DNA of 43,633 bases from Clostridia bacterium (lineage in GTDB: Bacteria; Bacillota; Clostridia; UBA1381; UBA9506): NCBI GenBank assembly GCA_017416985.1, contig JAFQAG010000249.1:1-43633 (forward strand). The letters are read 5' to 3'. Of the stretch, positions 17,617 to 31,543 are shown one piece after another. Every line of letters starts with the position of its first letter. Position 1 is the first letter of the stretch. The notes under the pieces were generated by a model. That model worked only from the letters and a program-made list of their open reading frames with translations, had not been told where the DNA came from and searched no databases. Made by a program: the position numbers and the translations under genes.

Positions 17617-17687
17617 ATACCGTGGCCGTAACAAAAGAAATGCATTTTACCACCGTTCTTTGTGCTGGACGGAAAATAGCGCAGATT

Positions 17688-17754
17688 GGACAAACTGAAC
17701 CCGTAGGGGTTACCCGAAGGCGTACATAGGTACGTCGAGAGGTGAAGTTTGTTC
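17688..17754 (+). ncRNA. Putative structured RNA core, copy A
   Basis: The outer stem pairs GGACAAAC (17688-17695) with GTTTGTTC (17747-17754), with one G-T pair. Hairpin 2 is AACCC/GGGTT (17698-17702, 17707-17711). Hairpin 4 is GGCGTAC/GTACGTC (17719-17725, 17730-17736), inside a short ACC/GGT stem (17712-17714, 17741-17743). Conserved unpaired segments are GAAC, CCC and GAGA. It lies 71 bases after the FAD oxidoreductase stop, in sense, and 21 bases before a terminator. Confidence 0.6.
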
Positions 17755-17775
17755 GAAACACAAGGCATATAACAA

Positions 17776-17803
17776 AAGGAATTCGCCAAGTGACGAATTC
17801 CTT
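17776..17803. terminator. Terminator hairpin downstream of RNA core A
   Basis: AAGGAATTCG (17776-17785) pairs perfectly with CGAATTCCTT (17794-17803), followed on plus by a T-rich tract ending TTTATTTTTT. On minus, TTTTG follows, so it may also end ROK transcripts. Confidence 0.82.
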
Positions 17804-17901
17804 CATTAATTTTATTTTTTAAAAATCTCTTGCTTTAATTAAAAAGCTCGGTTATGCAATTTTGCCTTGTGTGGTATGCGCATTTTACTACAGCGCCTAT
17901 G

Positions 17902-19275
17902 TTATTTAATTTTCGGCAAGCTAGCAGCCGCAACTGACTGACCTACTCTTCTTGCCTTTTCATCAGGAATATGAAGTTTAACCTTTTTATAAAGTTCGGG
18001 GAATTCTTTTTCTAATACTTCGTTAGCTTTAGCTAAAAGAATTGTGCCGCCCTTACCGCTTGTTACACGTCCCATAATAAGTACGTGTTTAATATCGTAA
18101 AACAGAGAATAATATGCGATTGTGTAACCGAAATATGTTCCGATTGTTTCGTAAATATCTGCTGCACGACTGTCGTCTTTTTCCATAAGTCCCTGAACAA
18201 CCTTAAGCTTTTCAGCAGGAGAAAGACTTTCGTCAAGCTCGATGCCTGCTTTAGGAGCAAGCTTTATAACTGCATCCTGAGAGAAATATTTAACACCGCA
18301 ACCGTAGTCACCGCTCCACTCGTCAACCATAGCACCCTTGTTAAAGTCAACCGGAACGAATGCAAGCTCGTTAAGCCAGCCTGTGATGTTTCCGTCTTTA
18401 TCAACATAACCTGCTGCTTCACTTGTGCCCATTGCAACACCTAAAACGTTGTTGTCTTCTAAGCTCATAGCACCTGCTAAAGCAGTTACGTCACCGTCGT
18501 TTGCAACCTCTACCGGAACATCGCCGATTTCTTTTGCAACATCTAAGTACATATTTTTAACGTGCTTTTCGAAATCTTCATCAGATACCTTTAAGAAAAG
18601 TGATGCAACCATAATCTTGTTGTCGATATAAACACCGGCAGACGAAACACCGATAGCATCGACTCTCGGCATATGAGATGCCGCAGTTTTCATAGCACTT
18701 AAAATACCCTCATAATGATATTTAGGGTCGCTTTCAAGTTTCGGGAACCAAACAACCTCTTCTGAATATACAGTTTCGCCATCAACAACTGCCGAAACCT
18801 TACGGTCACTGCCGCCTGCGTCAAAACCGATACGGCAACCGTCAAGATGACGGCCGATAGGTGAAGACGCATCATTTTCTTTCGGTGCATCTGCTACATT
18901 TTCAACATAGATAACTTCAAACGGCTTTTCATATACTCTTGCCATAAAGTTAAAGTCAAACTCTCTTGCGCCTCCTACTCTGTAATCATCTGCAATGCGG
19001 TCGTAAATGTATTTAGAGCCTGCGATATAAACCTTAAAGCCGCCCTTTGCCCAAAGAAGAGTTTTAATAATTCTTTCAGCAATTTCGTAGTTTTCTTCAT
19101 CATGACCTGTATTTTCTTTATACACGTCAAGCTTGTATACAGCCATAAGACCGTTATTACGTTCAACGCAGATGCATACCTCCTGCGAATCAGTAGCTTT
19201 AACAGCCTCTTTAAAGTCGTTAATAACCTTTACCATAGGTTTAAATTCCGGTTCTAATTTTGCAATCATTTTCAT
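17902..19275 (-). CDS. ROK-family sugar kinase-like protein, atypical
   Basis: This is a 457-residue protein. The first ~145 residues are an extension of unknown fold. The ROK domain follows with phosphate loop IGFDAGGSDRKVSAVV, GVSSAGVY, and NDGDVTALAGA carrying the probable catalytic Asp, then GVAMGTSEAAGY. The usual zinc motif CxCGxxGCxE and the GEIGH histidine are missing; in their place are NELAFVPVDF and GDYGCGVKYFSQ. The start ATG overlaps the nagA stop by 4 bp (ATGA), so the two work together, which suggests an amino sugar or its phosphate as ligand. It may be a kinase of unusual architecture or a sensor; activity is unproven. Confidence 0.78.
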   Translation of the reverse strand: MKMIAKLEPEFKPMVKVINDFKEAVKATDSQEVCICVERNNGLMAVYKLDVYKENTGHDEENYEIAERIIKTLLWAKGGFKVYIAGSKYIYDRIADDYRVGGAREFDFNFMARVYEKPFEVIYVENVADAPKENDASSPIGRHLDGCRIGFDAGGSDRKVSAVVDGETVYSEEVVWFPKLESDPKYHYEGILSAMKTAASHMPRVDAIGVSSAGVYIDNKIMVASLFLKVSDEDFEKHVKNMYLDVAKEIGDVPVEVANDGDVTALAGAMSLEDNNVLGVAMGTSEAAGYVDKDGNITGWLNELAFVPVDFNKGAMVDEWSGDYGCGVKYFSQDAVIKLAPKAGIELDESLSPAEKLKVVQGLMEKDDSRAADIYETIGTYFGYTIAYYSLFYDIKHVLIMGRVTSGKGGTILLAKANEVLEKEFPELYKKVKLHIPDEKARRVGQSVAAASLPKIK

Positions 19276-20417
19276 TCTCCTTTATATCTGATTTCTCCAC
19301 CTAAGATGGTCATGCTTACATTAAATTTTTCGTCTGCAATAGCAAAGTCTGCACGTTTGCCAACCTCTATTGAGCCGATTTCATCTGCAACACCCAATGC
19401 CGTTGCAGGATTAAGTGATGCACAGTTTACAGCCTCGTTAAGCTCTAAGTCAGAGTTTTCGTATAAGTTACGAACTGCCTCGTTAAGCTTTAACACACTG
19501 CCTGCGATTGTGCCGTCGGCAAGCAGACATTTAATACCCTCTTTAAATACCTCCTGACCGCCTAAGTCATAAGTACCGTCAGGCATTCCTCCGGCTCTCA
19601 TACAGTCAGTAATAAGGCAAAGCTTGTCACCTTTAATTTTAGCAACAAGATTAAAAAGTCCTTTGCTGATATGGAAGGTATCGGCTATAAGTTCAACACT
19701 TACTCTGTCGTCAGATAAAGCCGCACCCACAACACCCGGGCTACGATGTGTAAGTGCTGTCATCGCATTAAATAAGTGCGTTGTATGACGAACACCGCCG
19801 TCTATTCCTGCGTTAGCCTCTTCAAAGGTTGCGTTTGTGTGACCCATTGAGATTAAAACATCAGTTTCGTAAGAAACTTTTTTTATACACTCTTTAGCAC
19901 CATCAACTTCAGGAGCAACAGTAAAGAGCTTTACTACATCAGAATGCTTTTTAATAAAATCGGCATCTGGCTTTAAGATATGTTCTTCTGCCTGAGCACC
20001 TTTTTTAGAAGGATTGATAAACGGACCTTCGCTGTTTACGCCCAAAATTCTTGCGCCGTAATATTCGCCTGAATTTTTAACCTCTCTTACGCAGTCGAAA
20101 GCCTTTTCGATTTCTGCCTTAGATACTGTCATAGTAGTAGGACACCATGCAGTAACACCGTTTTTAATGATTCCCTCTGCCATGGTTTTAATTCCGTCGG
20201 CTGTGCCGTCAGATGCATCTTCGCCAAGATATCCGTGAATATGCATATCTACTAAGCCGGGCGATACAAATTTGCCGCCTGCATCAATAACTTCGTAGTC
20301 AGAAACGTTTATGTCTTTAAGTTCGGTTATTTTCTCAATTTTTTCATCGAAAATAATTGCCAGATTATCGGCAATTCTATCCTTTAAGAGGACTTTACCG
20401 TTTATAATGCATTTCAT
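19272..20417 (-). CDS. nagA: N-acetylglucosamine-6-phosphate deacetylase
   Basis: This 381-residue amidohydrolase releases acetate from GlcNAc-6-P in amino-sugar and murein recycling. It shows VDMHIHGYLGEDASDGT (residues ~56-72), GVNSEGPFINPSKKGAQ with the metal-binding Glu, MGHTNATFEEANAG, RHTTHLFNAMTALTHR and LITDCMRAGGMPDG with the catalytic Asp. AAAGGAGGAATATACA precedes the ATG. No nagB is nearby; the next gene is the atypical ROK. Its promoter is overlapped by tandem repeats near an AraC gene (see the operator entry), so induction by an amino-sugar signal is likely. Confidence 0.94.
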   Translation of the reverse strand: MKCIINGKVLLKDRIADNLAIIFDEKIEKITELKDINVSDYEVIDAGGKFVSPGLVDMHIHGYLGEDASDGTADGIKTMAEGIIKNGVTAWCPTTMTVSKAEIEKAFDCVREVKNSGEYYGARILGVNSEGPFINPSKKGAQAEEHILKPDADFIKKHSDVVKLFTVAPEVDGAKECIKKVSYETDVLISMGHTNATFEEANAGIDGGVRHTTHLFNAMTALTHRSPGVVGAALSDDRVSVELIADTFHISKGLFNLVAKIKGDKLCLITDCMRAGGMPDGTYDLGGQEVFKEGIKCLLADGTIAGSVLKLNEAVRNLYENSDLELNEAVNCASLNPATALGVADEIGSIEVGKRADFAIADEKFNVSMTILGGEIRYKGE

Positions 20418-20452
20418 TGTATATTCCTCCTTTTAAATTTCTTTATATAAAA

Positions 20453-20481
20453 ATAATACCACATCAGGACTAAAATTGCAA
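20453..20481 (-). promoter_or_regulatory. Promoter of nagA-ROK
   Basis: Minus strand TTGCAA (20481-20476) and TATTAT (20458-20453) with a 17-base spacer. The -35 box is part of the third operator repeat. Confidence 0.78.
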
Positions 20482-20527
20482 CTGCTTTTAACAAAAAACG
20501 CAACCGAATTTAACAAAAATCCGCAAC
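20471..20527 (-). promoter_or_regulatory. Tandem operator repeats upstream of nagA
   Basis: On the minus strand three units start at 20527, 20504 and 20482, spaced 23 and 22 bases (about two helical turns). Units 1 and 2 share GTTGCG-N-TTTTTGTTAAA with small gaps; unit 3 is GTTGCAATTTTA and includes the -35 box. Same-face direct repeats touching -35 are the usual layout for AraC-family activators, and an AraC gene lies just beyond. Confidence 0.68.
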
Positions 20528-20560
20528 TAAACTTTACATCAGTTGCGGATTTTTGTTAAA
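20509..20560. terminator. Terminator of the AraC gene, doubling as an operator-unit palindrome
   Basis: TTTAACAAAAATCCGCAAC (20509-20527) and GTTGCGGATTTTTGTTAAA (20542-20560) form a perfect 19-bp inverted repeat with a 14-base loop. Its left arm is operator unit 1 of nagA. It is the only clear terminator for the AraC operon. Confidence 0.8.
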
Positions 20561-20578
20561 TATATGTTTTTAAGTTGC

Positions 20579-21502
20579 CTATTTTAGTTTGCGATATTGT
20601 GTGGGCGACATCCCAATAAGTTTTTTAAATACACGATTAAAGTTTGTAACGTTCTCAAAACCAACATCCAGAGCAATATCAATAACCCTTTTGTCTGTAT
20701 TCTTTAAAAGCTCCATAGACTTTTTAACTCTGTAATGATTTAAGTACTCTAAATAGCTTTTTGACGTTACTGATTTAAACAAAGTACAAAAATATGAGCT
20801 GGAATAATTTGCAAGCTGCGACAGGCTTTCTAATGTTATATCCTTTTCGTAGTTAGAATGAATATAGTCAATAACCTTTAAGATTTCGTTCCGATGCTTT
20901 TTGTATCGGTCCGCCGCCAGCTCATCAGAATTTAAACTGTATTGTCTGCCCAAAACGGTTAAAAGATGTAAAATAAGCGAACGCAAAACAGTTTCAAAAC
21001 CCGGTTCTCTGTTTTGGTATTCATACATTGCATCTTCTATTATTCGCTCAACTTTTTCGCATATTTCGCCATCTAAATTTAAAATATGCTTGCTGTATTC
21101 TTTGGGATCTTCTCTCATTCCAAGACATATAAAGTCAGAGTATGCCTCTATATCGTTTATTTTATGCGATGGCGGAAAGATAAAATCTGTCATAAATTCC
21201 ACTTCAAAAACTACTGCTTTTTCAGCTTTTTCTCCGAGTATTATTTTATGCGGAACATACGGTGGAATAATAAAACACGAGCCTTGTGTAAATCTTGCCG
21301 TTCCATCTTCAAATTCACAAAATCCGTTACCCTCTGAAACGTAGTTTATCTGCATATACTCATGACGGTGAAACTCTGTTTGCGACTCATCAAAAATATG
21401 CTTATTTACAAATAACGACTTGTGATGCGAAAGGTTATTTTGCATTTTAATCAGTTGCATAGATTTATATTCCTGCTTATCTGAGTAATTTACACCTTCC
21501 AC
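20579..21502 (-). CDS. AraC-family regulator with cupin sensor domain
   Basis: This is a 307-residue regulator. The N-terminal cupin (about 40-110) includes FHRHEYMQINYVSEGNGFCEF and GSCFIIPPYVPHKI. Two helix-turn-helix motifs follow near the C-terminus (TLESLSQLANYSSSYFCTLF and VIDIALDVGFENVTNFNRVF) with the signature IGMSPTQYRK. I start at the GTG at 21502, which has AGAGGTGG 5 bases upstream; a TTG at 21538 inside the previous gene lacks a site. It ends the DegT-amidohydrolase-esterase operon. It lies next to the nagA operator and is the best candidate for binding those repeats. Confidence 0.88.
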   Translation of the reverse strand: MEGVNYSDKQEYKSMQLIKMQNNLSHHKSLFVNKHIFDESQTEFHRHEYMQINYVSEGNGFCEFEDGTARFTQGSCFIIPPYVPHKIILGEKAEKAVVFEVEFMTDFIFPPSHKINDIEAYSDFICLGMREDPKEYSKHILNLDGEICEKVERIIEDAMYEYQNREPGFETVLRSLILHLLTVLGRQYSLNSDELAADRYKKHRNEILKVIDYIHSNYEKDITLESLSQLANYSSSYFCTLFKSVTSKSYLEYLNHYRVKKSMELLKNTDKRVIDIALDVGFENVTNFNRVFKKLIGMSPTQYRKLK

Positions 21503-21524
21503 TTTTGCCACCTCTTTTAAAAGA

Positions 21525-22286
21525 TTACAGATTTTCAAATCCGCTTTTTAAGACGTTATCTGCGCTTTGCTTTTCGCTGAAAACTTTATCCGCCTTTTCA
21601 AGTCTTTTAAATTCGTTATAATATCTTAACCCGAATTCACGCAATGATTTTGAATTAAAATGCACCTTGTCGGGATTCGAAGTCAATCCCTCTGCTGATG
21701 CAAAACCAACCATTTCGGTACTAGCAGCGACATTTTTTATTTTTTCATTTATATATACATAATTGTTAAGCCAGCTGTATAGCTCAATTTCAGGATGTTC
21801 AGGTAAAAAGTCACCCAGACCACCTAAAATAAACGGCACATCGTAGAGGTTAAGTCTTCTTTTAAATGCCTCTATAACCTTTAAAAGCTTTGGCTCATAA
21901 GACGGATAAAGCTCGTCCCTGCAATCATTTTCACCCTGATGCCACAGTATTCCTGCAATGGTAGATGTGCGTGACGCAAGCTCTGCCATATAGCAGGCGT
22001 GGTCAAACAAAAGCTCACCCTCTTGCCACTGGTCAACAGATGTTCCACCATCTGCACAAGGGATAAGCCCAACCTCTACTCCCTTTTCTTTTGCATACAT
22101 ATCGGCAAAGCTCTCTGCAAGATTTATCCCTGACGTTACCCTGTCAGGATTAACAGGAACATACATAGGTTTGAAGCAGCCATTTCGCAAAACTTTTATT
22201 TTGTCATTGTTTATCGGCTCAACCTCGCCCAAAAAGCCTCGTCCTGCCATATTTGACTGACCGACTAAAAGAAAAGAATGTATCAC
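21525..22286 (-). CDS. SGNH-type sialate O-acetylesterase-like protein
   Basis: This is a 253-residue SASA/DUF303-family esterase. The nucleophile is in LLVGQSNMAGRG (Ser11). Further motifs are CADGGTSVDQW, ILWHQGENDC and the C-terminal KVHFN for the His. No signal peptide is visible, so it should act inside the cell on imported acetylated sugars. GGAGGAAATTTAA precedes a GTG start. It lies between an amidohydrolase and an AraC regulator in an operon with a sugar-type aminotransferase, next to nagA. Acetylated amino sugars or sialic acids are reasonable substrates, but that is inference. Confidence 0.87.
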   Translation of the reverse strand: MIHSFLLVGQSNMAGRGFLGEVEPINNDKIKVLRNGCFKPMYVPVNPDRVTSGINLAESFADMYAKEKGVEVGLIPCADGGTSVDQWQEGELLFDHACYMAELASRTSTIAGILWHQGENDCRDELYPSYEPKLLKVIEAFKRRLNLYDVPFILGGLGDFLPEHPEIELYSWLNNYVYINEKIKNVAASTEMVGFASAEGLTSNPDKVHFNSKSLREFGLRYYNEFKRLEKADKVFSEKQSADNVLKSGFENL

Positions 22287-22355
22287 TTAAATTTCCTCCG
22301 AAATAAATTTAAGTATATTTTAACACACAGTCTTTAAATAATCAACCAATTCCAC

Positions 22356-23252
22356 TTATTTATCAAGTCCGATAAGCTTTGCCGCATTTTTGTAAACTAT
22401 TTTTTCATAATTTTCTTTTGTCAGCATATTATCAGAAACCATCTTTGTAAGGAACTTGTCAAAATCAAGGTGGAAGATCTGCTCAGTTGAGCACACGTCT
22501 GTTCCGTAGCAGATTCTGTCAGAAAACTCTTCTAAAAATCTTGCTGCGTGCTCAGGGTCGCGCATTAAAGCATTTGCCCCGCTGCCTGCCGATAAATCAC
22601 AATATAGATTTCCGTATTCACGCATTAAATAGTGCAATCTGCCCTCTGTAACCTTACCTTGAGGATATGCCATCCTGACTTTATCGGTCACATCTCCCGA
22701 TATTTCGCACCAGAACGATGCAGAATGCCCAACAAGCTTTAAATCAGGATGCTTTTTAAGCATTTTTTCGATTCTTGGCAAACCCAGCTCGTCAATTATG
22801 CCATAGTGTGCACGACACTTAGGTGCAATATGAATTATCGCAGGCATATCAAGACTTTCACACGCACCAAACAGATTGTCCATCATAGGGTCATCTGCAT
22901 ATAGCGATGCAGTAATTTCACCAACACCACGCGCACCTAAATCTTTATAAAAACCTATAGCATGCCCTAAGTCTGTATTTTCACAGTTTTCACCTGAACG
23001 AGGGTCAACATTACAAAACCACACGAATCGGTCAGGATTTTTATCCGCTATAATTTTAGCCTCCTGATTACTTATGTTTTCCCACTGGCATTCGGGCGAA
23101 ACTATCGGCAAAATTACGCCCTTTTCTGTGTTTACATCATCAAACAGCTTAATTTGTTCATCAATGGACAAAAACCTCTTCATATCACCTTTTCTTGGCG
23201 GTATAATATCAGGATAAAGTGTAACGTGCGTATGAATATCTATTTTTTTCAT
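22356..23252 (-). CDS. Amidohydrolase-2 family metal-dependent hydrolase
   Basis: This 298-residue TIM-barrel enzyme has N-terminal HTH metal ligands in KIDIHTHVTLYP (residues 5-8), the strand motifs MPAIIHIAP and LKLVGHSASFWCE, and GTDVCSTEQ with the catalytic Asp near 255. This family includes decarboxylases and lactonases as well as amide hydrolases. GGAAAGTGAATAATA lies before the ATG. The upstream aminotransferase and the downstream esterase are in the same operon. The reaction is unknown; hydrolysis of a lactone or a cyclic amide in sugar metabolism is possible. Confidence 0.83.
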   Translation of the reverse strand: MKKIDIHTHVTLYPDIIPPRKGDMKRFLSIDEQIKLFDDVNTEKGVILPIVSPECQWENISNQEAKIIADKNPDRFVWFCNVDPRSGENCENTDLGHAIGFYKDLGARGVGEITASLYADDPMMDNLFGACESLDMPAIIHIAPKCRAHYGIIDELGLPRIEKMLKKHPDLKLVGHSASFWCEISGDVTDKVRMAYPQGKVTEGRLHYLMREYGNLYCDLSAGSGANALMRDPEHAARFLEEFSDRICYGTDVCSTEQIFHLDFDKFLTKMVSDNMLTKENYEKIVYKNAAKLIGLDK

Positions 23253-23267
23253 TATTATTCACTTTCC

Positions 23268-24584
23268 TTATTTAAAAGAGTTAATACTTCTGCCAATACC
23301 TAAGTCCTTTGTTTTCTCTTCTTTATTAAGCTTTTCTTCATATTCAAGTAAGTCATCAATATTTTCTGCTATTTTATGATAAGCTAGAGCATATTCTTCA
23401 ATAAATTCTCTGCCTACATTTTCAAATCGTGGAGCTATCATAATATCATTAATCGCTAAAATCTCGGTATTGGGCATATCTGTGTTCGGCTTATATTCTT
23501 TTCCATAATGAGGACAAGCAAGAGGACAACCGTTTCCAAACATACCACTTTCGGTATAAAGCGGTGCTTTATGCAGTCTGCCGTATCCGCAAGTGCCACC
23601 TGCAACGCCCTCTGCAGCCAACGCTTTACAAAGAGTTGTTACACTTAAGTTTTTAAGATTTTCTGGTACATATCTCATATAGTGATAAGCATATACCCTC
23701 TCGGCATTATCAGGAGTTCTCTGCAGTTTTAAAAAGTCCACATCAGCCAAAAGAGACTCTAAAAGCTTGCCGTGATTGTTTCTTATCTCGTTACGTTCGT
23801 CAAGCACATCAAGACCTGCATCTGCAATTGCAATTCCGAGCGGATTTGCTCTATGCTTAAATCCTAAGCCTGTGCCTGCAAATTTTTTATATTCAGAATC
23901 AGGCGAAAATCCGTCTATACGCTCATAATGACCTAAAGCGCATGCTCTTTCGTAATATTCTTTTGAATCAGTTACTAAAATCCCGCCCTCGCCTGCCGAT
24001 AAAATCTTAGAGCCCTGAAGCGAAAAACAGCCAACATCGCCAAAGCTGCCGACTTTTTTGCCGTGATATGTTGCACCGTGTGCGTGTGAACAGTCTTCAA
24101 CCACTTTAATATTGTGTTTTTTAGCAAGCTCGATAATCGGCTCAATTTCACAGGGAGTTCCCCATGTGTGAACAATAATAATTGCCTTAGTTTTAGGAGT
24201 TATAACCTTTTCAATTGTTTCTGCAGTCAAGGTCTGAAGCTCTAAATCAACATCGGCAAATACAGGAATTGCGTTACAAGCCACAACAGGTCCTACCGTT
24301 GCCCAGAATGTAAACGATGGTACAATTACCTCATCACCTGTACCTACACCTACAGCAAACAGTGCCGACTGAATAGATGTTGTTCCGTTACACATACACA
24401 ATCCGTATTCTCTGCCTATGTAATTTGCAAATTTTTCTTCAAAATTTTTAGTTACAGGCGACATAGATATTGCGCCTTTTTTCATCATTTCTTCTACTGT
24501 TTTATATGCCGCATCAGGCACGATAGGAAATATAGCAGGTGCCTTTGTTATGGTTTTTTCTCCGCCTAATAATGCAAGTTTCAT
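23268..24584 (-). CDS. DegT/DnrJ/EryC1/StrS-family PLP aminotransferase
   Basis: This is a 438-residue PLP enzyme. It has CNGTTSIQSALFAVGVGTGD (cofactor phosphate site), DEVIVPSFTFWATVG, VVEDCSHAHGATYHGKKVG and the Schiff-base lysine segment SLQGSKILSAGEGG. It is longer than many sugar aminotransferases (~370-400) because of a C-terminal helical tail. Family members aminate nucleotide or free keto-sugars or act on cyclitols. The upstream region has a TATAAT at about 24628-24633 on minus but no convincing -35. AAAGGAGCGG precedes the ATG. It is first gene of the operon leading to amidohydrolase, esterase and AraC. Confidence 0.87.
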   Translation of the reverse strand: MKLALLGGEKTITKAPAIFPIVPDAAYKTVEEMMKKGAISMSPVTKNFEEKFANYIGREYGLCMCNGTTSIQSALFAVGVGTGDEVIVPSFTFWATVGPVVACNAIPVFADVDLELQTLTAETIEKVITPKTKAIIIVHTWGTPCEIEPIIELAKKHNIKVVEDCSHAHGATYHGKKVGSFGDVGCFSLQGSKILSAGEGGILVTDSKEYYERACALGHYERIDGFSPDSEYKKFAGTGLGFKHRANPLGIAIADAGLDVLDERNEIRNNHGKLLESLLADVDFLKLQRTPDNAERVYAYHYMRYVPENLKNLSVTTLCKALAAEGVAGGTCGYGRLHKAPLYTESGMFGNGCPLACPHYGKEYKPNTDMPNTEILAINDIMIAPRFENVGREFIEEYALAYHKIAENIDDLLEYEEKLNKEEKTKDLGIGRSINSFK

Positions 24585-24697
24585 TTTAAACCGCTCCTTT
24601 TACTTAAATGTTTGGGTCTTTAACTGCATTATAGACGTTTTATATTTTTTCATCTTTAGAATTTATACTTAAAACTTTGTAATTTTTTCGACTTTTA

Positions 24698-25621
24698 TTA
24701 TAATTCAGGCAAGGATTCAACCAAAGACATAAATTGATTTAGTTTAGTTGCCTTGCTTATTGCCTTTTGGATTTTCTTTTCCTCTGGATAGTTTTGCATA
24801 ACATAAACCCATATTTCTTTCAATTTATGTAAAGTAAAGGTTTCTGATTTAAGCTTTTCGAAATATTTTTTCGAAAGCGACTCTGCAAATGTAACAAGTT
24901 CATCCTTTTTAAGAGGCTCTCCACCTCTTATTTCTCTGAATATTGCAGGATTTTTTATAGCACCTCTGCCAATCATAACACCCTCGCAATCAGAAAATCG
25001 GTTTGCAATTAAATCATAATCCTCTTTTGTATAAATATCTCCGTTATAGCAAAGCTTGTTTTTCGAGTTTTCGTATGCGTAATTAAAAACCTCTGTGTTA
25101 GCTTTTCCCTTATAAAAATCAACCCTTACACGAGGATGCACAATTAAAAGCTCTAACGGATATTTATTATAAATCTGCATTAATTGTTCAAACTCATTAC
25201 TCGAATCATATCCCGTTCGGGTTTTAAGCGATATTTTTATATCGCATTCAGAAAAAATATCATTTAAAAATTTATCAAGTTCATAAGGATTTGCTAAAAA
25301 TCCTGAGCCACGACCCTTTTTAACAACAGTAGCTGACGGACAGCCTAAATTTATATTTATTTCATCAAAACCGGCAAACTTAATCTTTTTTGCAAACTTC
25401 AAAAACGACTCCGCATGATTTACCAAGGTCTGCACCTTTAAGTTTACGCCTTCATTGTTTTCAGGCAATACATCTTTCAAGCCTTTTTTGCTGACCTTTT
25501 CATTGTCACTAGGAGTTATAAAAGGCGCATAATAAGCATCGCATCCGCCAAAAATTTCGGCGTGTGTTGTTCGATATATACTTGTTGTAATCCCCTCAAG
25601 CGGTGCGAAATATAAATTCAT
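24698..25621 (-). CDS. dus: tRNA-dihydrouridine synthase
   Basis: This 307-residue FMN TIM-barrel enzyme reduces uridines in tRNA D-loops. It starts LYFAPLEGITTSIYR. The catalytic-cysteine segment is INLGCPSATVVKKGRGSGF near residue 90-110. ISLKTRTGY, LLIVHPRVR, LCYNGDI and GVMIGRGAIKNPAIF are all standard. The C-terminal helical domain is present. The subtype (DusA/B/C) is unclear; it resembles the shorter clostridial DusB/C-like group. TCGGAGGAAAGCA precedes the ATG and the gene has its own promoter. Confidence 0.92.
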   Translation of the reverse strand: MNLYFAPLEGITTSIYRTTHAEIFGGCDAYYAPFITPSDNEKVSKKGLKDVLPENNEGVNLKVQTLVNHAESFLKFAKKIKFAGFDEININLGCPSATVVKKGRGSGFLANPYELDKFLNDIFSECDIKISLKTRTGYDSSNEFEQLMQIYNKYPLELLIVHPRVRVDFYKGKANTEVFNYAYENSKNKLCYNGDIYTKEDYDLIANRFSDCEGVMIGRGAIKNPAIFREIRGGEPLKKDELVTFAESLSKKYFEKLKSETFTLHKLKEIWVYVMQNYPEEKKIQKAISKATKLNQFMSLVESLPEL

Positions 25622-25651
25622 TGCTTTCCTCCGATTTTAAAATATGCTATA

Positions 25652-25680
25652 ATTGTAGCACATTTTTTATAAGATGGCAA
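25652..25680 (-). promoter_or_regulatory. Promoter of dus
   Basis: Minus strand TTGCCA (25680-25675) and TACAAT (25657-25652) with a 17-base spacer, immediately after the agcS terminator. Confidence 0.78.
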
Positions 25681-25687
25681 ACAAAAA

Positions 25688-25707
25688 GATGCATCATGCG
25701 ATGCACC
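25688..25707 (-). terminator. Terminator of the alanine symporter gene
   Basis: GATGCATC (25688-25695) pairs with GATGCACC (25700-25707) as an 8-bp stem with one G-T pair. On minus it is followed by TTTTTGT, just after the symporter stop. Confidence 0.8.
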
Positions 25708-25714
25708 TTTTTAT

Positions 25715-27097
25715 TTATCTTATTTCGTGTCTTTTTTCGGCAAAATATTCTTTTGTCAGCGAGCTAACCACCTTATAAAGACCTATAACACCGATAAGGT
25801 TCGGAATAGCCATAAGACCATTCATCGTTTCTGAAATGCTCCAGATTAACTCTAAGTTTCCTACCGCTCCGACAAATACCATTATAACATAAATTATTCT
25901 GTATGTCATCACTGCCTTTTTGTTATTTTTCGATAAATACTGAACACTTACCTCACCATAATACGCCCAGCCTAAAATAGTAGACAGCGCAAAGAACACT
26001 GTCGAAAGTGTAACACCTACACCGCCTATACCCGGTATGATTGAGTTAAACGATGCAATCGAAAGTGCCGCACCATTAAGCTCACCCTGTGACCAGATAC
26101 CCGTAGTTAAAATAATCAAAGCTGAAAATGTACAGATGATAATTGTGGTAAAGAATACCTCAAACATTCCCCATAAACCCTGGTCTACCGGATTTTTTGT
26201 GCTTGATGCCGCATGAGCAATCGGCGCACTACCAAGACCAGCTTCGTTTGAGAATACGCCACGTGCAAAGCCGTAATGCATTGCAAGCATAATACCGTAT
26301 CCTGCCGCACCGCCAGTTGCTGCTTTAAAATTAAACGCTTCTTTAAAGATTAACGCAAATGCCGCCGGAACGTCTTTTATATTAAGCACAAGCGCAACAA
26401 TAGCACACACAACATAAAACACAGCCATAAACGGAACAAGCTTTTCGTTTACCGATGCAATTCTGCGCATTCCGCCTAAAATTACAGCAGCAACGATTAC
26501 AGTCAGCACAACACCGGTAATCCACGGAGCTATACCTAAAGTAGAATCAAGCGCAACCGAAATGGAATTTGACTGAGTTGCATTACCTGTACCTAAGCAT
26601 GCAATCATTGCAAAAACGGCAAATGCAGCTGCCAGCCATTTAATTTTTAAGCCATTTCTTATATAATACATAGGACCGCCAATCCATTCGCCCTTTTCAT
26701 TCTTTTCACGGAATTTTAAAGACAATACGATTTCGGAATATTTTGTAACCATACCTAAAAGCGCGCTTATCCACATCCAGAAAACTGCACCCGGACCTCC
26801 TGCAACGATAGCTGTTGCAATACCTGCAATACTACCGGTTCCTATTGTTCCTGCCATTGCCGTAGCAACTGCCTGAAACGGGCTTACCCCCGAGCTGTCT
26901 TTTGCGTGCTGATTTTTCCCAAAAACACTGCCAATTGTGTTTTTTATTGCATAGCCGAATTTTCTAAACTGAATAAATCCGACCTTAAACGATAAAAAAA
27001 GTCCTGCGCCGATTAAAAGTGTCAGCATTATCGGACCCCAGACTACGTCATTAACTTTTCCATTTACAAATTCAATAAAACCAATGATAGCACCCAT
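25715..27097 (-). CDS. Sodium:alanine symporter (AGCS family)
   Basis: This is a 460-residue polytopic membrane protein with about eleven hydrophobic segments. Family signatures include GTGSIAGIATAIVAGGPGAVFWMW, the EKNEKGEWIGGPMYYI loop and FSNEAGLGSAPIAHAAS, which contains a conserved Glu. It imports alanine or glycine with Na+ or H+. CGAGGAGATTAAGC precedes the ATG. The gene is alone, divergent from secA, under a strong consensus promoter embedded in an inverted repeat. Confidence 0.93.
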   Translation of the reverse strand: MGAIIGFIEFVNGKVNDVVWGPIMLTLLIGAGLFLSFKVGFIQFRKFGYAIKNTIGSVFGKNQHAKDSSGVSPFQAVATAMAGTIGTGSIAGIATAIVAGGPGAVFWMWISALLGMVTKYSEIVLSLKFREKNEKGEWIGGPMYYIRNGLKIKWLAAAFAVFAMIACLGTGNATQSNSISVALDSTLGIAPWITGVVLTVIVAAVILGGMRRIASVNEKLVPFMAVFYVVCAIVALVLNIKDVPAAFALIFKEAFNFKAATGGAAGYGIMLAMHYGFARGVFSNEAGLGSAPIAHAASSTKNPVDQGLWGMFEVFFTTIIICTFSALIILTTGIWSQGELNGAALSIASFNSIIPGIGGVGVTLSTVFFALSTILGWAYYGEVSVQYLSKNNKKAVMTYRIIYVIMVFVGAVGNLELIWSISETMNGLMAIPNLIGVIGLYKVVSSLTKEYFAEKRHEIR

Positions 27098-27136
27098 GCT
27101 TAATCTCCTCGTTTAATTAATTTATGCAACGAATTA

Positions 27137-27165
27137 ATTATAATATCACGTTAAAATTTTGTCAA
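27137..27165 (-). promoter_or_regulatory. Promoter of the alanine symporter gene
   Basis: Minus strand TTGACA (27165-27160) and TATAAT (27142-27137), both perfect, with a 17-base spacer. Confidence 0.88.
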
Positions 27166-27179
27166 GAAATATTTTAACG
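27149..27179. promoter_or_regulatory. Inverted repeat around the symporter -35 box, possible operator
   Basis: CGTTAAAAT (27149-27157) and ATTTTAACG (27171-27179) are perfect 9-bp arms 13 bases apart, with the -35 box between them. A dimeric regulator could block the promoter here; its identity is unknown. Confidence 0.5.
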
Positions 27180-27247
27180 TTTTTACATTTTGTCATATTT
27201 TTTATATTTTGCACATTGTTAACTTTTAATTAATTTTTATATTTTCT

Positions 27248-27276
27248 TTGACCTTGGATATATTTTATGCTATACT
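27248..27276 (+). promoter_or_regulatory. Promoter of secA
   Basis: TTGACC (27248-27253) and TATACT (27271-27276) with a 17-base spacer. It overlaps any upstream-extended secA start, which supports the TTG start at 27386. Confidence 0.82.
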
Positions 27277-27385
27277 AAAAGTTGGAGTGTTCTATTTAAA
27301 AATATATACCGCATTTTTAAAACGCAAGCGGTCATACTATAATAAATACGAATTCTGCATTTTTTGCAGTTATGAGGTGAACGGA

Positions 27386-30121
27386 TTGAAAAAATTACTT
27401 GAAAAGATAATAGGTAATTATTCGCAAAGAGAGTTAAAGCGTCTGCGCCCTATTGCTGATAAGGTTATGGCGTTAGAAGACGAATACCGAAAGCTGTCTG
27501 AAAGCGAATTAAAAGGTAAAACTGCAGAGTTTAAAACTCGTATAGCAAACGGTGAAACATTGGACGATATATTACCGGAAGCATTTGCAACCGTGCGCGA
27601 GGCAGCTGACCGTGTGCTTGGTATGCGTCACTTTTATGTGCAGATTTTAGGTGGTATTGTTCTGCATCAGGGCCGTATATCCGAAATGAAAACAGGCGAA
27701 GGTAAAACTTTGGTATCTACCCTTCCTGCATACTTAAACGCATTAAGCGGCAAAGGCGTGCATATTGTAACGGTCAATGACTACCTTGCAAAACGTGACT
27801 CTGAGTGGATGGGTAAAATCTTTAAATACTTAGGTCTTAGTGTCGGTCTTATAATTCACGAGGTTGAAAATAAAGACAGAAAAGCCGCATACGAAGCTGA
27901 TATTACCTATGGTACAAATAACGAGTTCGGCTTTGACTACCTGCGTGATAATATGGTTATCTACAAAGAACAGATGGTTCAGCGTGGCCACAACTACGCA
28001 ATTGTCGATGAGGTTGACTCCATTTTAATCGACGAAGCAAGAACTCCGCTTATTATATCGGGTGTGGGCGACCGCTCAACTATGTTATATCAACAGGCAG
28101 AAAACTTTGCCCGCACACTTAAAAGCCATCGTGTTGCAGAATCTGATGACAAAGCATTAGAAGACGACAGTATTACAGCAGATTATATAATAGACGAAAA
28201 GGCAAAAACTGCAACTCTTACAAAACACGGTGTTGAAAAGGCAGAACGTGCCTTTAATATCGAAAACCTTTCTGACCCCGAAAATATGACTCTTCAGCAT
28301 CATATAAATCAGGCAATAAAGGCTCATGGTACAATGCATCGTGACAAAGATTATGTTGTAAAAGACGGCGAAGTAATAATTGTTGACGAATTTACAGGTC
28401 GTCTGATGTTCGGCAGACGCTACTCTGACGGATTGCATCAGGCAATTGAGGCAAAAGAGGGAGTTAAGGTAGAGCGAGAAAGCAAAACCTTAGCAACCAT
28501 TACCTTCCAGAACTATTTCAGACTCTATTCAAAGCTTTCAGGTATGACAGGTACAGCTCAGACCGAAGAAACCGAATTTCAGGATATTTACAAGCTTGAC
28601 GTTATTGTTGTTCCTACAAATAAAGAGCTTGCAAGAAAAGACCTTGCCGATGCTGTATATAAAACAGAGGCAGGCAAATTAAATGCAGTTGTTAATCAGG
28701 TTGCAGAATGTCACGAAAAGGGTCAGCCTATTTTGGTGGGTACTGTAACAATCGAAAAATCAGAGCTTATATCATCAATGCTCAAGCGTCGTGGCATAAA
28801 GCACGAGGTGCTAAATGCTAAACACCACGAAAAAGAGGCAGAAATCGTTGCTCAGGCTGGTAAGCTTGGTGCGGTAACCATTGCAACCAATATGGCTGGT
28901 CGAGGAACCGACATTATGCTTGGTGGTAATGCCGAATTTATGGCAAAGCATGAAATGAAGCGCATGGGCTATGAAGATGAAATGATTGCAGAAGCTATGG
29001 GCTTTGGCGAAACAGACGACGAAGAAATTTTAAATGCAAGAAAAAGCTTTGCCGAGCTTTTGGCAAAATATAAAGAACAAATTGCACCCGAGGCAGAAAA
29101 AGTGCGTCAAGCGGGTGGTTTGTTTATCATAGGTACAGAAAGGCACGAATCAAGACGTATTGATAATCAGTTGCGTGGTCGTGCAGGTCGTCAGGGTGAC
29201 CCTGGTTATTCTAAGTTTTATATATCATTAGAAGATGAGCTTATGCGTCTTTTCGGCTCAGAAAGAATATCACGAGTTGTCGAAACCTTAGGCTTAGAAG
29301 AAGATCAGCCGATTGAGCACAGTATGTTAACAGGCGCAATCGAAAATGCTCAGAAACGAGTCGAGGGACGAAACTTCCAGATTCGTAAGCACGTGCTTCA
29401 GTATGACGATGTTATGAATCAGCAGCGTGAGGTTATCTACGGTCAGCGTCAGAAGGTTTTAGGTGGCGAAAGCGTTAAAGAAAGCATCTTAAAAATGCTT
29501 GGCGAAGTTACAGAATCTGCAATCCTTCGTTTTACAGGCGAAACTGACGTGGCAGATGACTGGAATTTAGAGGGACTTATTAACTATTTAGAATCTTTAT
29601 ATATTCCACAAGGCGCATTAGAAATAAGCCGTGACGAGCTTGAGTTTATTACAAAAGAAGAGCTTAAAGAAAAGGCACTTAATATAGGATATGAGATTTA
29701 TGAACAACGTGAGGCAGAGTTTGGCAGCGAAAATATGCGTGAGCTTGAACGTGTAGTTCTTCTTCAGGTGGTTGACAGAAAGTGGATGGACCACATTGAC
29801 GATATGGACCAGTTAAGAAACGGCATTAACCTAAGAGCATATGCGCAGCGTGACCCGGTTATCGAGTATAAATTCGAAGGCTTTAATATGTTTGAAGAGA
29901 TGATTAGTGCAATTGGTGAGGACACCGTTAGATTTATCTATCACGCACGAATTGAGGCACCGCCAGAACGTGAGCAGGTAGCAGAGCCTACCAGCGCAGC
30001 TCTTGCAGGTGAGAACACAAATAAAACTGTTAAAAAGGCTGAAAAAATCGGCAGAAACGACCCGTGTCCTTGCGGTTCAGGTAAAAAATACAAAAAGTGC
30101 TGCGGTGCAGACGAAGCATAA
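27386..30121 (+). CDS. secA: Preprotein translocase ATPase SecA
   Basis: This 911-residue motor drives secretion through SecYEG. Motifs are Walker [11 protein letters not shown], the DEAD-box [36 protein letters not shown] and [10 protein letters not shown]. The C-terminal zinc/SecB-type tail is [18 protein letters not shown] choose the TTG at 27386: GAGGTG lies 6 bases upstream, homology begins [16 protein letters not shown], and a promoter occupies the longer frame's start. A TTG start is unusual for secA and may moderate translation. It is followed at 38 bases by prfB, a conserved Firmicute neighbourhood. Confidence 0.96.
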
Positions 30122-30159
30122 CAGCATAAAATATCATTAAAGTATAAGGATGTGAAAAA

Positions 30160-31282
30160 ATGATTGAATTCGACCAATATCGTCTGGATTTAGACGCTAT
30201 GAAGAAGGATATTATTGAATTGAGGGATTCACTTTGAATTGCCCAAGACAGAATCTAAAATAGCTGAGCTTGAGGCAAAATCATCCGAAAGCGGTTTTTG
30301 GGATGATATGGAAAATTCCCAGAAAGTATTGCAGGAGTTAAAGCAATTAAAGGCAAAGGTTGAGCGCTATACTGCCCTTTCTTCTCAATGGGAGGATATG
30401 GTAACCTTAGTTGAGCTTGCAATCGAGGCAGAAGACGAATCAATGCTTGACGAAGTCGCAGAGGGCTATACCCTACTAACTTCAGATTTAGAAAGTATGA
30501 AGCTCGAAACTCTGCTTTCAGGAAAATATGATAAAAACAATGCCATTATTTCGCTGCACCCGGGCGCAGGCGGAACAGAGGCTCAGGATTGGGCACAAAT
30601 GCTTTTCCGTATGTATCAGATGTGGGCAGAACGTCGTGGCTTTAGCGTTGAAACCTTAGACTACTTAGCGGGCGACGAGGCAGGAATTAAAAGTGTAACT
30701 ATTCTTATTAAGGGCGAAAATGCCTACGGATACGCCAAAAGCGAAAAGGGCGTTCACCGTCTGGTAAGAATTTCTCCATTTGACTCATCAGGCAGACGAC
30801 ATACCTCGTTTGCATCGGTTGATGTAATGCCCGAAATTGACGATGATATCGAGGTCCACATTAATCCCGAAGATTTAAAGGTAGACACCTTCCGCGCAAG
30901 CGGTGCAGGCGGTCAGCACGTAAACAAAACCGATTCGGCAATACGTATTACACATATCCCCACAGGTGTTGTTGTTGCGTGTCAGACTGAACGTTCACAG
31001 CATCAGAACAGAGATAATGCTATGAAAATGCTTACTGCTAAACTTTTTGAGATGGCGGAACGTGAACAAAAAGAAAAAATCGAAGACTTAAAAGGCGATA
31101 TGAAAGACATTGCATGGGGCAGCCAGATTCGCTCTTACGTGTTCCATCCATATAATATGGTTAAAGACCACCGTACAAACTTTGAAGTTGGTAACATCGG
31201 TGCTGTAATGGATGGCGACCTTGATGGTTTTGTAAATGCGTACTTAAAGGCATCGAGTATGGGAACATTAAATTTAAAATAA
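30160..31282 (+). CDS. prfB: Peptide chain release factor 2, programmed +1 frameshift
   Basis: RF2 (about 373 residues) recognises UGA and UAA stops. Translation starts at ATG 30160 (AAGGATGTG upstream) and reads 25 codons to CTT, then meets an in-frame TGA at 30235-30237. A +1 slip at CTT-T continues as GAA from 30236 through 31282. The slip site CTTTGA is preceded by TTGAGGGA, the Shine-Dalgarno-like stimulator. Later motifs include SPFDSSGRRHTSF (SPF stop-recognition tripeptide) and the GGQ catalytic motif in GAGGQHVNKTDSA. The frameshift is autoregulatory: low RF2 favours slippage. It is not a broken gene. Confidence 0.95.
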
Positions 31283-31372
31283 ACGGTTGGTGTATTTAGC
31301 GCAGACTGTTCAAAGGCAAGAAAGTTTTTCAATACTTAGCATTTAATTAGATAAAAAGTTTAAAAAAAAGTT

Positions 31373-31397
31373 GAACTTCGCAAAAATTGCGAAGTTC
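31373..31397. terminator. Terminator shared by prfB and element copy B
   Basis: GAACTTCGCAA (31373-31383) pairs with TTGCGAAGTTC (31387-31397). T-tracts follow on plus (TTTTTT) and on minus (AACTTTTTTTT), so it can end prfB and minus-strand transcripts from copy B. Confidence 0.88.
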
Positions 31398-31423
31398 TTT
31401 TTTATAATCCGCCTTTGAAATAT

Positions 31424-31508
31424 GAACAAACCTCACCTCTCGGCGTATACACATACGCCTTTGGGTAGCCAAAAGCAAGACTTTATCTTGCTTTTGTTCG
31501 GTTTGTCC
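31424..31508 (-). ncRNA. Putative structured RNA core, copy B
   Basis: The outer stem pairs GGACAAAC (31508-31501) with GTTTGTTC (31431-31424). Hairpin 2 is a perfect 10-bp stem AAAAGCAAGA/TCTTGCTTTT with loop TAAAG, replacing the 5-bp hairpin of copy A. Hairpin 4 is GGCGTAT/ATACGCC. Conserved unpaired parts GAAC, TACCC and GAGAGGTGA match copy A. It follows the LysR gene in sense and precedes a terminator by 26 bases. Confidence 0.6.
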
Positions 31509-31543
31509 ATTCTGCATCTAAATTCACTCAGCCTTAATTATTG

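Follow-up and report, generated by a model that had tools for sequence, protein, structure and literature searches.

Small mobile repeats in bacterial genomes are usually viewed as passive leftovers of insertion sequences (ISs). BOX, RUP, SPRITE and QMITE are bacterial miniature inverted-repeat transposable elements (MITEs), described in a review (PMC10969869) as short, intergenic and multi-copy with stable transcripts. IS1272, of the IS1182 family, targets inverted repeats and is reported to replace its target without leaving a duplication (PMC5678879). Here we analyze a structured repeat of which two inverted copies, A and B, lie in the window, the whole 43,633-nucleotide (nt) contig JAFQAG010000249.1 of the Clostridia bacterium assembly GCA_017416985.1. 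The copies belong to a repeat family with a strand-asymmetric fold and IS1182-type ends, and two genomes carry the element between duplicated hairpins. At a probability of roughly 60%, we read the copies as a non-autonomous, MITE-like element of IS1182 type with terminators as its targets and a conserved structured core.

A repeat family with a strand-asymmetric fold

A first-pass annotation had reported two inverted copies of a multi-stem element at 17688-17754 (plus strand) and 31424-31508 (minus strand), and a sequence check finds both cores there, with the outer stem GGACAAAC/GTTTGTTC and the conserved blocks in place. The same annotation described two copies, whereas the window's own genome contains 21 or more. 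The pattern that yielded the first copies, ACCCNAAGG..CGAGAGGTNA, has five matches in that genome and none when reversed. Scanned over a bacterial genome collection, it returned at least 117 stretches, many in metagenome-assembled genomes (MAGs) of ruminant-gut Clostridia/Oscillospiraceae and a few in Helicobacteraceae MAGs; among the matches listed, many (Streptomyces, Akkermansia and others) resemble chance hits. A crude filter retained 48 of 127 pattern matches and discarded real copies too, and the sets for the next alignments were chosen by eye. Hairpin 2 is missing in many relatives, and 16 such copies were aligned and used to build the covariance model R1. The hairpin-2 swap on which the earlier annotation had leaned is real, but by itself it carries little weight as evidence, since it concerns an optional insert.

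With R1, all of the copies counted in the own genome score E <= 1.9e-5 (150 of 289 first-look candidates scored). Matches occur in 17 of 20 genomes of the family, the own genome included; across the class, 52 of 391 genomes, representing 33 of 222 genera, have one (E <= 1e-5; 11 candidates scored per genome). The genomes behind two MAG contigs, G020 and G021, hold 38 and 21 copies, and G030 (100% complete) at least 11. Two Helicobacteraceae MAGs hold 52 and 33 copies (E <= 0.01), and matches in that phylum are confined to 4 of 298 sampled genomes (E <= 1e-5), G409 among them. In viral contigs, one pattern scan gave no match and another 11 bare pattern matches; blastn against plasmids and phages gave one weak 32-base match (E 0.06) and none in a second search. 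No published account of the element was found among the open-licence papers searched.

Unconstrained folds of copies A and B yield a single three-way junction composed of a closing helix (P1/P2), an apical domain and a second domain. The second domain is closed by ACACAAGGCA/TGCCTTGTGT in copy A and by TTTCAAAGGC/GCCTTTGAA in copy B, and it encloses the hairpin previously taken for a terminator 21-26 nt downstream, which is thus internal to the element. Alignment of the own-genome copies extends the repeat to a right end, TGCGCATTTTGCTACAGCC, giving a unit of about 240 nt in the window copies rather than the 67-85 nt first proposed; no transposase gene lies inside it. Two own-genome copies (L135, L137) have an extra structured insert of about 65 nt between P2 and the outer stem, and a second dispersed repeat (AAGTCCTGCCGGACGGGCCTTCTTTTGATTGCAAAAGAAG..) lies upstream of three others (L125, L129, L134).

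The Helicobacteraceae element is a hairpin of about 110 nt, AAAAGTTTCAG..core..CTGGAACTTTT, itself terminator-like, and several copies stand in close tandem. In 15 of 29 copies (loci within L277-L306) a second small hairpin, typically GATGGCGAAGCTCATC, precedes the model start at a near-constant spacing, usually 38-48 nt and in one case 91 nt; it may be part of the unit. Because the core is found with more than one kind of end, it appears to matter in its own right.

Selection on structure, which the first-pass annotation had argued from two copies, is borne out by the family as a single-stranded fold, and the many copies do show covariation. In an alignment of 102 distinct rows fitted to the covariance model, 95.5% of 1,938 cells are standard pairs, changes on both sides occur in 18 of 19 pairs, and the covariation score is 0.604, against 0.232 for shuffled and at most 0.134 for slid alignments. 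A smaller alignment that was not fitted to the model agrees (97.0% paired; 0.528 against 0.198 shuffled). The outer stem is freely variable, and the tip, GA-ACC-CGAAG-..-CGAGA-GGU-GA, is nearly constant, in part owing to the search pattern behind the first copies; the apical core consists of G.A-rich loops around ACC/GGU and GYGUAY/RUACRY. The outer helices also covary. When each of 139 copies was offered 15 partners from other copies, the P1/P2 strand paired better with its own downstream partner than with the median swapped one in 112 copies, and better than with all 15 in 50; for the second-domain strand the corresponding counts are 132 and 69.

Across the 19 pairs of the fitted alignment there are 198 G-T and 13 A-C combinations (90:7 in Clostridia, 108:6 in Helicobacteraceae), a ratio somewhat inflated by the slight preference of the covariance model for G-T. 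Shuffling partners within columns leads one to expect 303 and 149, so that observed over expected is 0.65 for G-T and 0.09 for A-C; with two G-T-dominated pairs excluded, the counts are 83 against 206 and 13 against 145. Because A-C is depleted far more than G-T, the fold is read as kept mainly on one strand. Predicted RNA stability points to the plus strand: it is favored in all 11 dissimilar Helicobacteraceae elements and in 126 of the 132 whole elements from Clostridia, compared with 77 of 135 control windows taken 300 nt upstream. These counts in part reflect base composition, for which dinucleotide shuffles correct, and a smaller bias remains: z is lower for the plus than for the minus strand in 27 of 30 dissimilar whole elements (means -6.35 and -4.84) and in 8 of 11 apical domains (means -5.82 and -4.20). 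A strand bias across the family is not expected of a cruciform, and we therefore conclude that selection acts chiefly on the fold of the single plus strand, either RNA or single-stranded DNA (ssDNA).

Terminator hairpins and IS1182-type ends

In G020 and G021, 16 well-preserved copies were tested, selected by a match of the core to one of a set of fixed strings and by the presence of both flanks in the contig. An intrinsic-terminator hairpin occurs as a direct repeat to the left and right of 13 of them, AAATGGGATGTGAAAAGTTGTTTTTTCACATCCCATTT being one example. Ten of these duplications are exact (20-38 base pairs, bp), two are imperfect and one comprises half a hairpin; counted as exact words the repeats span 13-38 bp, and their length follows that of the hairpin. 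The target is an inverted repeat, here the terminator hairpin, and it is retained on both sides rather than removed. In a looser alignment test on 141 copies, 21 own pairs passed, compared with 4 of 419 swapped ones; the 21 rows comprise 12 terminator hairpins (all in G020/G021), eight repeats belonging to the element itself and one script artefact (L081). G021 also has an element of about 290 bp (L251, 3120-3412) with IS1182-type ends that apparently lacks the core and is flanked by two terminator hairpins unlike each other.

Related genomes encode IS1182-family transposases, two of three proteins scoring above the NF033551 cut-off of 270 bits (364 and 399). At one locus (L248) the transposase gene lies between ends GGGGCTGTAGCAAAA and TTTTGCTACAGCCCC, which resemble the right end seen in copies of the window type; next to the right end of L248 itself, no hairpin is evident. 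Three further loci (L249, L250, L348) have IS ends TTTTTCGACAGTCTG or TTCGACAGTCTG, as in the G020/G021 elements. A terminator hairpin lies directly outside an end of this type at L249 and L250, while at L348 that end is at the contig edge and a hairpin adjoins the opposite end, CAGAGTGTAGAAAAA. In G021, TTCGACAGTCTG is present both in the element and in a transposase-end fragment.

The window copies also show signs of mobility. Copy A is shared with genome G006, a close relative, at the same place (neighbor protein 98% identical), where a clean hairpin stands at its left end in place of the window's degenerate palindrome, and copy B is missing from the orthologous spacer between the putative prfB and lysR. 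In G006 (L323), the place downstream of prfB where copy B would be expected is taken up by another AT-rich sequence, several hundred bases long and containing hairpins. Copies can also stand in tandem, as in an array of 4.1 units of 215 bp, and some arrays or single copies are preceded by a partial unit that retains its 3' end. A compact three-unit array in G017 (L174, 760-1090) has a 114-bp period and a second domain that is nearly gone.

In Clostridia, IS1182-family DDE transposases recognizing the shared ends are the most likely agents of movement. The transposase would join the element to the feet of a hairpin on both strands, presumably after cutting there, and repair would then duplicate the whole terminator hairpin; the window copies would have moved as those of G020 and G021 did. 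The plus-strand three-way junction most likely acts as RNA. Since so elaborate and strand-biased a fold is kept across two phyla, something probably reads the element, and the conserved core probably binds a protein that aids its spread or tolerance.

Several observations weigh against this reading. Searches for PF13751 transposases gave none for the own genome (78% complete), for G030 or for G020, the genome richest in hairpin duplications; the last of these slightly lowers our confidence. Among 21 genomes searched, PF13751 matches occur in five (G017, G021, G223, G323, G410). The IS end in G017 is unlike the right ends of the G017 array, and the Helicobacteraceae transposase of G410 was rejected as a partner because its ends are unrelated. 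By a pattern test, the core is absent from the autonomous IS loci (L248-L250, L345, L346, L348), and its conservation across two phyla exceeds what would be expected of a passive MITE interior. Hairpin duplication falls to 12 of 21 in G020/G021 once weaker copies are counted (L238-L242 have none), and was not found in the other Clostridia copies tested, the window genus included. The 29 Helicobacteraceae copies likewise lack target duplication (longest shared word 6.4 for own and 6.7 for swapped flanks). IS1272 itself is reported to replace its target without duplication (PMC5678879). Finally, the window copies have nearly equal z on the two strands (A, -6.13/-6.18; B, -8.69/-8.21), which slightly raises the standing of explanations based on ssDNA or on DNA inverted repeats alone.

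Alternative explanations

The copies lie close to gene ends, and their orientation relative to genes bears on several alternatives. Simple calling of open reading frames (ORFs) allowed 123 of 160 Clostridia copies to be classified. The upstream gene runs in the same direction as the element in 77 of them and the downstream gene against it in 99: convergent genes flank 62 copies, both neighbors oppose the element in 37 and agree with it in 15, and the remaining nine have divergent neighbors. Of 157 distinct copies, 12 apparently fall inside an ORF of at least 100 amino acids. For the Helicobacteraceae, 25 of 30 copies could be classified: ten lie between convergent genes, 13 are antisense to both neighbors, none sense to both and two between divergent genes, so that the upstream gene is sense in ten and the downstream gene antisense in 23. 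This mixed orientation does not suit a plain 3' untranslated region (UTR) element of the upstream gene and leaves room for ssDNA.

The alternative that survives best, although we consider it doubtful, is that the element is a structured ssDNA hairpin moved as one strand, in the manner of REP/RAYT or attC, with the IS1182-type ends being secondary in Clostridia. A fold that is strand-biased and yet so often antisense to the downstream gene (99 of 123 and 23 of 25) would be odd for an element of mRNA, and the Helicobacteraceae copies, several in close tandem and none with a target duplication, would also fit. However, the G-T wobbles (198 of 1,938 cells) fit RNA better than DNA, and in G020/G021 the hairpin duplication and the IS1182-type ends indicate double-strand transposition.

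A bolder proposal is a mobile class spanning both phyla whose folded plus-strand RNA (or ssDNA) works in movement into terminators, using IS1182-type transposases in Clostridia and another enzyme in Helicobacteraceae. We judge such RNA-assisted, hairpin-targeted transposition unlikely.

Still less likely is a host small RNA or 3'UTR regulatory RNA whose copies were spread passively by neighboring transposons. This is close to the first-pass interpretation of a 3'UTR-derived or independent small RNA, which is not supported here, the copies being mobile repeats with IS1182-type ends and no consistent sense orientation. Strong covariation and plus-strand bias are what a host RNA would show, and diverged single matches (L342, 1501-1592; L343, 1501-1590) occur at the same place after one gene, antisense to it, in two further genomes from the phylum to which the Helicobacteraceae belong; we read that gene, from its sequence, as probably 2-oxoacid:ferredoxin oxidoreductase beta-like. 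Against a host RNA stand the copy numbers (no fewer than 21 in the own genome, 52 in a Helicobacteraceae MAG), the precise ends with hairpin duplication and the inconsistent sense orientation.

It is very unlikely that the element consists of DNA inverted repeats only, that is, of transposon ends and cruciforms in which the single strand has no role. The outer helices do coincide with terminal inverted repeats, and the window copies fold about equally well on either strand by z-score. A cruciform, however, should treat G-T and A-C alike, whereas A-C falls to 13 of 149 expected and G-T only to 198 of 303; 27 of 30 dissimilar copies show a lower z on the plus strand, and the apical core is not a terminal repeat. 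An RNA-templated element resembling short interspersed nuclear elements, whose plus-strand RNA, once folded, would serve as the template for new DNA at terminators, would account for the RNA-like fold, the variable duplication lengths and the arrays and copies preceded by a partial unit keeping its 3' end, but is highly improbable because the ends match IS1182 DNA transposons and duplication length follows the hairpin.

Window copies and known systems

The features of the two copies are collected in Table 1. Folded alone, the apical domains have z of -4.16 (copy A) and -7.79 (copy B), with none of 200 shuffles equally stable. Flanking genes in the window encode, by Pfam, a FAD-dependent oxidoreductase, a ROK-family protein, a release factor with PCRF and RF-1 domains, probably release factor 2 (prfB) in our reading, and a LysR-type regulator.

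Table 1. Features of copies A and B (window positions; partner, the pairing strand)
Feature	Position	Strand	Details and basis
Copy A, whole element (three-way junction)	17660..17898	+	Minimum free energy fold, z -6.13; R1 match 17670-17773, E 7.3e-13
Copy A left-end imperfect palindrome, degenerate	17621..17659	+	Sequence
Copy A helix P1, 5' strand	17662..17667	+	Partner 17891-17896; sequence and fold
Copy A helix P2, 5' strand	17673..17683	+	Bulged A 17678; partner 17877-17886; sequence, fold, swap test (139 copies)
Copy A apical domain (outer stem, optional hairpin 2, conserved core)	17688..17754	+	Fold; family covariation
Copy A optional hairpin 2 (AACCC/GGGTT)	17698..17711	+	Fold; missing in aligned hairpin-2-free copies
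Copy A conserved core ACCCGAAGGCGTAC..GTACGTCGAGAGGTGA	17712..17745	+	Pattern scans, sequence
Copy A second-domain helix, 5' strand	17758..17767	+	Partner 17863-17872; sequence, fold, swap test
Copy A inner hairpin (formerly 'terminator')	17776..17803	+	Sequence, fold
Copy A right end TGCGCATTTTACTACAGCGC	17877..17896	+	Same type as IS end TTTTGCTACAGCC; alignment of own-genome copies, IS loci
Copy B, whole element (architecture as copy A)	31285..31535	-	Fold, z -8.69; R1 match 31405-31490, E 1.9e-5
Copy B helix P2, 5' strand	31511..31522	-	Bulged A 31517; partner 31295-31305; sequence, fold
Copy B apical domain	31424..31508	-	Sequence, fold
Copy B optional hairpin 2	31467..31495	-	Sequence, fold
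Copy B conserved core	31433..31466	-	Pattern scan, sequence
Copy B second-domain helix, 5' strand	31411..31420	-	Partner 31309-31317; sequence, fold
Copy B inner hairpin (formerly 'terminator')	31370..31402	-	Sequence, fold

The first-pass annotation recognized no known riboswitch or ribozyme, and Rfam agrees. At the gathering cut-off, Rfam 15 finds only a tRNA in the whole window, and around copies A and B, at E up to 10, all matches fall below the cut-off and none is credible. Likenesses to kink-turns, to the SAM-I and glycine riboswitches, to the hammerhead and twister-sister ribozymes and to attC sites were considered and set aside. The family shows that a mobile element can yield strong covariation in a riboswitch-like motif, a point that bears on screens for new RNAs.

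Among known systems, group IIC introns also insert beside intrinsic terminators, but are far larger than the element; the window has no Rfam intron match, and the element in G020/G021 lies mostly between duplicated terminators. REP/BIME sequences with RAYT are likewise extragenic imperfect palindromes with many copies per genome, but the REP palindrome measures 20-40 nt, whereas the element spans about 110-240 nt with several helices. It resembles BOX, RUP, SPRITE and QMITE in being short, intergenic and multi-copy with a stable predicted RNA, and differs from them in having strand-biased covariation and a core common to Clostridia and Helicobacteraceae. The likeness to the IS1272/IS1182 family lies in the inverted-repeat target and in transposases found between the same kinds of ends. 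IS1272, however, is reported to replace the hairpin (PMC5678879), whereas the element described here has no transposase gene, carries a structured core and, in G020/G021, mostly stands between two copies of the whole hairpin. Such insertions would provide natural cases of whole target-hairpin duplication, a pathway that the IS1272 paper draws in its model while reporting replacement. A MITE of an IS family is a familiar kind of element; what is new is a structured core shared between phyla, together with duplication of the whole terminator as seen in G020/G021.

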